Shown in pieces: positions 33,830 through 61,489 of a stretch of DNA of 64,000 nucleotides. The notes under the pieces are model-generated. The model had not been told where the DNA came from. It made no database searches and saw only the letters and a program-made list of their open reading frames with translations. Source of the DNA: Utricularia gibba. Taxonomy: Eukaryota; Streptophyta; Magnoliopsida; Lamiales; Lentibulariaceae. The translations under genes were made by a program, and so were the position numbers. Every line of letters starts with the position of its first letter. Positions within the stretch are counted from its first letter, which is position 1. The stretch is from assembly GCA_002189035.1 (NCBI GenBank), contig NEEC01000021.1, positions 682,001 through 746,000 of the forward strand, given 5' to 3'.

Positions 33830-33899
33830 CCCACGCCATTAAACTTTTCAAGGGACAAGCTTTTAACCCTACACTTGGGCTCTGCGCCACTCCGACTTG

Positions 33900-35508
33900 A
33901 TGGATTTGTTCAGCGCCGCGTTGCTTCTACTCGCCGCCCTGGTGTCCTCTTTCTGCTGGCGGGGATGCTTCTCTCGGAGAAGCGCGTCTCCCAAGAACCT
34001 CCCGCCGGGGCCGCCCGGGTGGCCGCTCGTCGGGAACTTGTTCCAGGTCATCCTCCAGCGCCGCCATTTTGTGTTCTTTGCTCGTGAGTTGCGGGAAAAG
34101 TACGGCCCCATGTTTACGTTGAAGATGGGGCAGAGGACTCTAGTCGTCGTGGCGAGCCCTGAGCTTATGCACGAAGCGCTGGTTCAAAAGGGGGCGATTT
34201 TCGCTAGCCGGCCGGCGGAGTCGCCGATTAGGCTGATTTTTAGTTCCGGGAAGTGTACGATTAACTCGGCGGAGTATGGGGCTCTGTGGCGGTCGTTGAG
34301 GAGGAATTTTGTGACGGAGCTGATAAATCCGACGAGGATTAAGCAGTGTAGTTGGATTAGACAATGGGCGGTTGAGAATCACATGAAGCGTATAGAGAAG
34401 GAGGGCGCCGCCGTGGGATACGTCGACGTCATGAACAACTGCCGTCTCACGATTTGCAGTATTCTGATTTGCCTCTGTTTTGGAGTCAAAATCTCTGAAG
34501 AAAAAATCACAGAAATCGAATCCGTCCTCAAGGACGTTGTTCTAATGACAATGCCCAAGTTACCGGACTTTTTGCCAGTTCTGACGCCGCTGTTCCGCAC
34601 GCAAGTTAAAGCGGCGAAGGAGCTACGGCGGAGGCAGTTACAGTGTCTTATTCCTCTGATTCAGAGTAGGAAAGTGTTCGTGGACGGTGGGGAGACCACG
34701 GCTGAGATGGCAAGCCCCCTCGGCGCCGCCTATATCGATTCGCTCTTCAAGTTAGAGGTTCCCGGCAGGGGTAAACTAGGCGACGAGGAAATCGTGAGTC
34801 TCTGCTCTGAAGCCATCAACGGTGGCACGGACACCAGTGCCGCGACGTTGGAATGGGCGTTGTTTCATTTGGTAGTGAATCAAGACGCGCAGGAGAAGCT
34901 GTACAAGGAAATCGTGGAGGTCGTCGGCAAAAATGGCGTTATCACCGAAACTGACGTTCAGAGAATGCCGTATCTTGAAGCTGTCGTCAAAGAAACCTTC
35001 AGAAAACACCCACCAATCTACTTTCTCCTCTCCCACGCCGGTAAAATCTCGATTTCCATTGTCAAACCCATCATGTCCGGTTACGAATCCCATAAAACAT
35101 TTCATTTTTGCAGCAACAAAGGAGATCGAACTGGGAGGCTACACAATCCCCGCTGACGTAAACGTGGAGTTCTACACCGGAGGCATTTCAGAGGACGGCG
35201 ACAAATGGGAAAACCCAAAAGCGTTCATCCCAGAGAGGTTCTTAACCGGCGACGGCGTGGAGGTGGACATCACCGGCATGAGAGAAGTGAAGATGTTGCC
35301 GTTCGGCGCCGGGCGCAGAATCTGCCCCGCCTGGACTCTGGGAGTACTCCACGTGAATCTCCTCCTTGCCAGAATGATCCAGGCGTTCAAATGGCTGCCC
35401 TCGCCCCTGAACCCCCCCAGCGCCGACGAGACCTTCGCCGGCACGGTCGTCATGGCGAGCCCCCTGAAGGCCATAATTCTCCCTCGGTCCCTGGGTTTGA
35501 ATCCGTAG
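33900..35508 (+). CDS. CYP77B: Cytochrome P450, CYP77 family (CYP77B-like)
   Basis: Two exons, 33900-35040 and 35114-35508 (phase-1 GT-AG intron), giving 511 aa. The start is the ATG at 33900; the preceding TTG is not used. The N-terminal anchor MDLFSAALLLLAALVSSFCW is followed by the proline hinge NLPPGPPGWPLVGNLFQV. Substrate-side text LTICSILICLCFG and the oxygen-binding I-helix NGGTDTSAATLEW come next. The K-helix ETFR, PERF and heme loop PFGAGRRICPAW are intact. The intron falls within the conserved SHAATK, which is restored exactly. CYP77 enzymes sit on the endoplasmic reticulum and hydroxylate or epoxidise fatty acids, with roles in cutin and embryo or flower epidermis. Overall text is closest to CYP77B1; the subfamily call is from memory of the family. 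Confidence 0.93.
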
Positions 35509-57993: not shown

Positions 57994-59523
57994 TCATGTT
58001 CTTTTGGTGAGGAGGACTTTCAGTCCATGCTGAGCGTGAAGCATGATGGAGTCGCGGGGCACCACGCGGTGGCTCTCCACGGCCTGAACCTTGTAGCGGC
58101 GCAGAATGGCGGCGGCCACCATTTTGACCTCGGCGTAGGCCATCTCCTTCCCCAGGCACGTCCGCGGCCCGACGTTGAACCCCGGGAACTTGTAGGAAGG
58201 CATGGTTATCAGCGACCCTTGGGAGCTGATCCACCTCTCCGGCTTGAATTCCATGCAGTCTTCCCCCAGAGAGACTTCATTCGGCCGACGGAGTAAAACG
58301 CGAGCACGACCTTGGAGTTGGGCCGGAGGCGATGGCCGCTGGGGAGGACATCTTCCTGGAGGGGGATTTGTACTGCAGCGCCAGAGGGGGAAGAGTCTGA
58401 CGGATTCGGAGATTGCTGCGTGGAGATAGACGAGTTTGTGTGATTCTTCTACAGTGAAGTTCCTCCACTTCCCATCTAGAACCTTCTCGATCTCTGCAAG
58501 TATCTTCTTCTCCGTTTCGGGGTGTTGGGAAACAAGGAAGAAGAGCCATGTTAGAGTTGTGCTGGAAGTGTCACTGCCTGCAAAGAGCAGACTCAGCAAT
58601 GTGTCCCTTAGGAAGGTCCTCAGGTCGCCGGAGATGGCGCTCTTGTTGTCGTTATACGCCTGTGTGAAGCTTTTCCAGATGGTATGCTCCAGCCGATTTG
58701 GTTTTTCATCGCTTTCAGAAGTTGACAGATAGGAGTAAATGAAGTCATCAAAGTCCTTCCAGGCTTCAGCTAGCTTCCTTTCCTCCCCAATTCTCAGCAG
58801 CTTCATCACTTTCCAAACCCATTTAGGCAAAACATGGCGCTGAAACAAGGGCTTCAGAGCCTTCCCAAAAGCTTTCTCACAAGGAACTGGTGGTAGACCA
58901 GGGGACAAGCTACCAGGGTCGGAGTTGATTAGCAGGAGGAAGATGTTGTCAAATGCAAAGCGCTGAAAAATGTCCTGCATATCAAAAGCAGCAGATTTCG
59001 CACAGAAATCTTCAAGGACTGGATACAAACCAGTCTCGATCTTGAACCAGACACTTCTCTCCAGTGCTTGGTGGAACTTGGGCCCGCTCATGAATGAAAG
59101 AATGGTGGTTCTGTGAACTTGCCATAAGTCAAAATCTGTACAGAAAATCCCATCTCCAAGAATTTCAAACTTCTCCTTGAACTCCATACCCTTTGGGTAA
59201 TTACCAAAGTTTTTGCTCAAAATGTGGTTTATGTCTTGAGGGTTGCAAGTGAAGAGCAAATCCATGTTGCAGAACCACGGCCCTTTGAACAAGAATGTGC
59301 CGCCGGTTGCCGTCAAGAGGTTGTTGGTCTTGTTGTGCACGTCGCTCAGAACTCGCAGCGCTGCCGGAAGCATCCCCAGAACCGGCCAGTTCGTGGGCAC
59401 GCTATAGGGTTTCCCCCTTCTGTGAACGACCCTGTAGAGATAAAGAAAAAGGAAAGCAGCGGTGAAGAAGACGACTTCCGGCCGTTGAAAGAACTTGATC
59501 GCCATTCCCAGAGCTGCATCCAT
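57994..59523 (-). CDS. Cytochrome P450, CYP96A-type, with clustered frameshifts
   Basis: Single-exon gene read as one open frame of 509 aa from ATG 59523 (MDAALGMAIKFFQRPEVVFF) to TGA 57994-57996. Features: membrane anchor, VPTNWPVLGMLPAALRVLSD, I-helix LLFAGSDTSSTTLTWLFF, K-helix ESVR, KPERW, and heme loop FNVGPRTCLGKE with Cys near 456. CYP96A enzymes of the ER hydroxylate fatty-acid-derived chains; Arabidopsis CYP96A15 (MAH1) makes secondary alcohols and ketones for cuticular wax. Between the K-helix and KPERW the protein text is wrong for the family: 58263-58390 encodes a Pro/Arg-rich stretch (STNPPPGRCPPQRPSPPA), while the other frames give family-like LPPLALQYKSP and later VVLAFYSVGRMKS. 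Three one-base deletions in G5/C5 runs explain this and cancel out. Either sequence errors or a damaged gene. Confidence 0.85.
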   Translation of the reverse strand: MDAALGMAIKFFQRPEVVFFTAAFLFLYLYRVVHRRGKPYSVPTNWPVLGMLPAALRVLSDVHNKTNNLLTATGGTFLFKGPWFCNMDLLFTCNPQDINHILSKNFGNYPKGMEFKEKFEILGDGIFCTDFDLWQVHRTTILSFMSGPKFHQALERSVWFKIETGLYPVLEDFCAKSAAFDMQDIFQRFAFDNIFLLLINSDPGSLSPGLPPVPCEKAFGKALKPLFQRHVLPKWVWKVMKLLRIGEERKLAEAWKDFDDFIYSYLSTSESDEKPNRLEHTIWKSFTQAYNDNKSAISGDLRTFLRDTLLSLLFAGSDTSSTTLTWLFFLVSQHPETEKKILAEIEKVLDGKWRNFTVEESHKLVYLHAAISESVRLFPLWRCSTNPPPGRCPPQRPSPPAQLQGRARVLLRRPNEVSLGEDCMEFKPERWISSQGSLITMPSYKFPGFNVGPRTCLGKEMAYAEVKMVAAAILRRYKVQAVESHRVVPRDSIMLHAQHGLKVLLTKRT

Positions 59524-61489
59524 GGCTTCTGTCTCCCCCACTGCGTCTGAGCTGTGTCAATGAATATAAAGAAGACACCCTCAACAACCCACATGTAACA
59601 TCCACTAAATGCTTTCCAATGCTAAACACCCACGAAAAGAAAACACGAAATTACCTCCATGACTACACAACAAAAAAAAAAGTGGTGGAAACAGGGAGAG
59701 CGAACTGTGAAGTAACCCACACACATTCACAACTCATTTCATCCCACACTACAAAACCCACAATCCAGAACACCCAAAATCGAAACTAGAGTGCATTATT
59801 TATCCCTAACCTCCAAGCACTACCTTCTGTAATTCACTAGCAATAACAAAACCCTACATTATTTCATAACTCCCTACTCCCTTGTCCTTGGAATGTAAGG
59901 AAGAAGATAATCCAGAAAGGCAGCGCCCACTCTAATAATGGATGAAGGAGCAGTAATTATTTCATATTTACCAGGACACGTACTTCCCCACGCTGCTTAC
60001 TGTAGATTTCTATACTCAGGACAGTCTTCCCACCGGAGACATAAATTACTGTGTCAGCATCACCCCTCTCTCCCTCCCCCTCCTTCCACGACCAACTAAT
60101 TAATACCAATTTGAAATCAAAACCATCAAATCTAAGTCGTTTTAATGATCAATTAGGAAACCAATTCTTAATTATAAAAATTAGGGTTTGATTAGACTAA
60201 TTACGCACACGTATTGAAAACTACGTGATTATAAAACGAGTATGCATTGTTTTGCTAATCAAATTAATTTTAATTTTTTACTAATATTTTAAAATAATTC
60301 AATTATAAACTAATCACATGGTATATAGACACAAATGATTTAAATATATTATTAATTAAACTATACTATGAAACACATCCCACCCTCATCTTTGCATTGG
60401 ACAGCATCAGACAAAGACAAATCATATTGCCTAAGGTCATTCCCGAACGTGACATATGCAAATAGGGTTGTTCATGGGTCAAATTTGATACGCTAACACT
60501 AGAAATCGAAACCGAATTATTTATAAAATAATCAAATAATTAAAATCCCTAATTGGATGGGGTTGGGATGAATTTTAACTATGTTTTTCCCAATACTTTT
60601 TATCTGTTTTTGTAATTTGAAACCGTACTTTAGATTATGTAGAATATAATGAGTTTGAGATTGTAAAATTGTTTTATGTGATATCATAAAATTTAAAATA
60701 AATGTATACTATAAAGTTTAATATTAATGTTATGATATAAATGTTTTTTTAGAATAGATAAATAATGAATAATATAATTTTTCTAATTAATCTTTTATTT
60801 AATTTATAAAACATATATTTAAGAAATTCAATAATTTCTGAAGCTAATTACAGAATCTTAATTTATGATTTTACTACATAACGAATAAATATTAGAATAA
60901 CACATAACATGGCATGCCCTTTCTTTTAATGTATGGTCAAACAATTGGGTGTTTTTAAAATTATTCTTTTAACCCAAAGTTGAGTGTGATGATGCACAAT
61001 TATCACCATGGCCCTACTCACTCTATTACACTAATTACAACATTATGCACATGATGATGAGTCAAAATAATATTTTCCTTTGTGAAGTTTATTGTAAAAC
61101 AAAGTGGGGGTAAACAAGTAACTTTCTTGGGAAGAGGAGACATACCATGATTGGTCTCAAAATGGTTGTGAAAGCTCCACATGAGAGGGGAGTAGCTGAA
61201 TGAATTGAATGTGGATGGATGGAGATGGAAGACCAGTTCAAATCTCATGTCCCATTATGATGATATCAATCATACACCATATTTATTTTATTTATTTGTT
61301 TTATTTTATTTCTAATATTGGTATATATGTATTTTGAGTGAAATAATACTGAATACTCATAACCACCACATGTGAACCGCGGGGGGTAGTTGGTGGGAGA
61401 AATGGGGGGTTCTGACAACATTGTCCCATCGCCCAACCAACCCCATGCTCTTACTCTCCCAATGTCAACTCCATATTTGACTTATTACA

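Follow-up and report, generated by a model that had tools for sequence, protein, structure and literature searches.

In this study we describe a cytochrome P450 gene of Utricularia gibba that, judged from sequence comparisons, is very probably an ordinary member of its family, assembled one base short at three G/C homopolymers through consensus undercalling of long reads. The garbled protein segment within it is most likely a sequencing or assembly error and not a biological novelty. The gene lies in a window of 64 kb (the whole stretch of DNA that was analysed), on a contig of 1.7 Mb in a plant genome of 100 Mb and 516 contigs. Its features are as follows:

57994–59541, minus strand: cytochrome P450 gene, CYP96A-like, one open frame with the signatures FAGSDTSS, ESVR, KPERW and FNVGPRTCLG
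58261–58391, minus strand: garbled Pro/Arg-rich segment of about 43–45 residues in the annotated frame, as read from the frame translations
58386–58390, minus strand: first run, C5 in the gene (G on the plus strand), where the family reading LFPPLALQYK requires six
58361–58365, minus strand: second run, C5 in the gene (G on the plus strand), where the family reading KSPLQEDVLPSGH requires six
58263–58267, minus strand: third run, G5 in the gene (C on the plus strand), where the family reading SLWGEDCMEF requires six

The open reading frame at 57994–59541 (−) extends over 515 codons from a GTG; counted from its first ATG, at codon 7, it has the 509 unbroken codons that had been reported in a sequence-only reading of the window. 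Membership in the Pfam family p450 (PF00067) is indicated by a profile match together with the heme-binding Cys loop FNVGPRTCLG, the ExxR motif ESVR and the I-helix motif FAGSDTSS in the translation. As assembled, the gene matches the profile with 157 bits in two stretches, and with the frames followed it matches with 189 bits in a single stretch. The CYP96A label is tentative and comes from the sequence-only reading and general knowledge. The gene shares the I-helix, ExxR, PERW and heme-cysteine signatures with CYP96A and CYP86-clan P450s and aligns over nearly its full length to paralogs in the same genome; it differs from them in that, as assembled, some 43 residues between ExxR and PERW lie outside the reading frame. 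The family pattern is followed everywhere but between the K-helix ESVR and KPERW, and from the K-helix to PERF/PERW the family sequence is not continuous in the assembled frame. A segment out of frame would speak against a functional enzyme in the form given, but does not call the identity of the gene as a P450 into question. It had been suggested that, if the losses are real, about 40 residues of the meander region are scrambled. The garbling from ESVR to KPERW is there, at about 43 residues, but what lies between the K-helix and the PERW motif belongs mostly to the beta-strand/K' segment ahead of the meander. GC content reaches about 60% in the 3' part of the gene (58000–58499), compared with 34% in the window and roughly 40–55% in the remaining gene. 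A second P450 in the window, at 33897–35508 (+), has a Pfam match split between two frames at profile positions 346–347. A frameshift was considered here as well and rejected, as a GT-AG intron of some 76 bases (about 35039–35114) plausibly accounts for the junction.

The three five-base runs were found exactly where the sequence-only reading had placed them, and the family-like text that it had seen outside the annotated frame is present: one off-frame contains LPPLALQYKSP, the second VVLAFYSVGRMKS. Using a purpose-written aligner of protein to DNA in which frameshifts are permitted, and taking the intact paralog L002 from the same genome as main reference, we located −1 events near 58391, 58365 and 58261 and no others in the aligned part of the gene. 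The claim that one lost base per run explains every frame switch is borne out by this alignment, and so is the claim that the losses add up to one codon; the reading frame stayed open because three single-base losses sum to a codon. With frameshifts the alignment score rose from 893 to 1011, penalties included (net gain 118), whereas controls in which the codons of the segment were shuffled (n = 300) gained no more than 7, with a mean of 0.07. With the more distant references L006 and L007 the first two events were merged into one +1, and with L016 three −1 events were found again. The third event is agreed upon by the more distant references and the first two are located less exactly. The net −1 events sit at homopolymer runs. 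The frame-following reading is SVRLFPPLALQYKSPLQEDVLPSGHRLRPNSKVVLAFYSVGRMKSLWGEDCMEFKPERW, close to the paralog L010 (PPIALNHKAPLESDTLPSGHRVEPNSKIVISFYSMGRMESIWGEDCLEFKPERW), and it is family-like throughout, without decay around the lesions.

Losses of the same kind recur at homologous runs of diverged paralogs on other contigs. The run homologous to the first one (the LFPP site) is one base short in L010 (C6 where 7 are required) and in L024 (C4 where 5 are required). The run homologous to the third one (the WGED site) is one base short in L013 and L022 (both G5 where 6 are required) and in L005 (G4 where 5 are required); L022 carries two more losses upstream of this site. In the GRAS family, which is unrelated to P450s, conserved codons lack a G or C (−1 breaks) in L059, L061, L062, L063 and L064, and in four of these five loci (L061–L064) the breaks fall at or near a homologous GGPP-type site. 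Two GRAS losses, one in L061 and one in L064, concern GG pairs instead of long runs. Frame breaks backed by at least two references in the P450 and GRAS loci amounted to 26 of the −1 and 5 of the +1 type; these are unfiltered counts, which contain some intron edges and errors in the references. The breaks in L004 and the one in L025 resemble introns and were not taken as base losses. L024 has a second frame break (−2 or +1) at about 2536–2560, away from homopolymers, and may be a true pseudogene or contain another error. Many matches to the ketoacyl-CoA synthase family (KCS, PF08392) were split across neighbouring pieces, which may reflect frameshifts, introns or pseudogenes.

Two loci that are present twice in the assembly bear on the question directly. 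L011, on a contig of 5.7 Mb, and L012, on a contig of 29.6 kb, represent one locus and differ at 4 of 3140 columns, 2 of them in run lengths. L011 has G5 and an open frame, L012 has G4 and a stop, so that only L012 is broken there; the second run-length difference concerns a T run and goes in the opposite direction. L047 and L048, likewise two copies of one locus, have 21 differing columns, 20 of which are bases absent from L047, coding G/C runs included, and the open frame is 412 in L047 versus 615 in L048. In both pairs, the frame remains intact in the copy that lies on a contig of several megabases, at the places where missing G/C bases break it in its counterpart. One-sided loss of bases is the pattern that a thinly covered contig would show. 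It is possible that the differences within the two pairs are real alleles. The redundant contig copies are C413 with C376 for L011/L012 and C412 with C316 for L047/L048. The same class of error is thus found elsewhere, twice-assembled loci included. However, the P450 gene itself lies on its 1.7 Mb contig and not on a small redundant one, and the genome assembly contains no second copy of the P450 locus for a comparison of run lengths. A clear depletion of long G/C runs was seen neither in the 64-kb window nor in about 96 kb of loci: the window holds 8 G/C runs of six or more, which is not strikingly rare, and its G/C runs continue from five to six at a rate of 0.20, compared with 0.21–0.23 for shorter runs. 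This argues that undercalling is partial and not universal.

Long-read or assembly undercalling had been proposed in the sequence-only reading, and the recurrent G/C losses in paralogs, GRAS genes and twice-assembled loci support it. During consensus calling, a long-read assembly would lose one base per G/C run in the 3' part of the gene, which is rich in GC, and three such losses, together one codon, would leave the frame open, so that the error would be visible only as a garbled protein segment. The high GC content of the 3' part may explain the local clustering of the lesions. It is our inference that all three runs of this gene are errors and that the reads came from PacBio sequencing. According to a review, the Utricularia gibba genome is an 88-fold PacBio HGAP assembly with a contig N50 of 3.4 Mb (PMC5793159). 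Single-base homopolymer deletions are known from PacBio consensus sequences: a bacterial genome polished with Quiver contained 561 of them (PMC4888979), and seven apparent frameshifts were left in one PacBio-assembled gene (PMC5964635). Our case resembles these residual deletions in that single-base losses break otherwise intact genes (PMC4888979, PMC5964635). It differs in that the three losses cancel, leaving an open frame that a simple stop check would miss, and in that it concerns short G/C runs, of five bases in the assembled sequence.

Could the gene instead have been inactivated recently in the plant? Three real single-base homopolymer deletions would then have been fixed as a compensated pseudogene encoding a full-length P450 that is probably dead, or altered. 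We regard this as improbable. Homopolymers are genuine mutation hotspots, the frame is open, and a net loss of one codon would be unsurprising had a partly functional protein been retained; as in compensated-frameshift pseudogenes, several indels sum to a multiple of three. However, the displaced frames are family-like throughout, with neither stop nor decay, and the remaining gene is intact, so that the inactivation would have to be very recent. Three independent events in the same direction within 130 bases would be required, and in addition independent repeat losses at the homologous runs of paralogs on other contigs. Unlike in compensated pseudogenes, there is no decay elsewhere and the same loss repeats at homologous runs of other loci, a recurrence in the assembly that inactivation of this gene leaves unexplained.

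It is very improbable that the Pro/Arg-rich segment at 58261–58391 is used as a new functional variant between K-helix and PERW, for which only the open frame speaks: taken alone, the segment is not recognised by any Pfam family, no such segment stands in a coding frame of the paralogs that were examined in detail, and the family sequence is retained in the off-frames. Least credible of all is that the assembled sequence is right and slippage at the runs restores the frames during expression; homopolymers can slip and the other frames do hold family text, but a nuclear gene would have to be corrected three times in succession within one short stretch, and we know of no plant nuclear precedent for such a correction.

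In conclusion, undercalled homopolymers in an ordinary P450 gene are the best explanation of the garbled segment. For users of this assembly it follows that open reading frames may conceal garbled segments. The L011/L012 and L047/L048 pairs could serve to gauge the error rate of the assembly. Apparent P450 and GRAS pseudogenes in it may be consensus errors, and gene losses counted from the assembly of this small plant genome could be overestimated if the counts are made without short-read checks.
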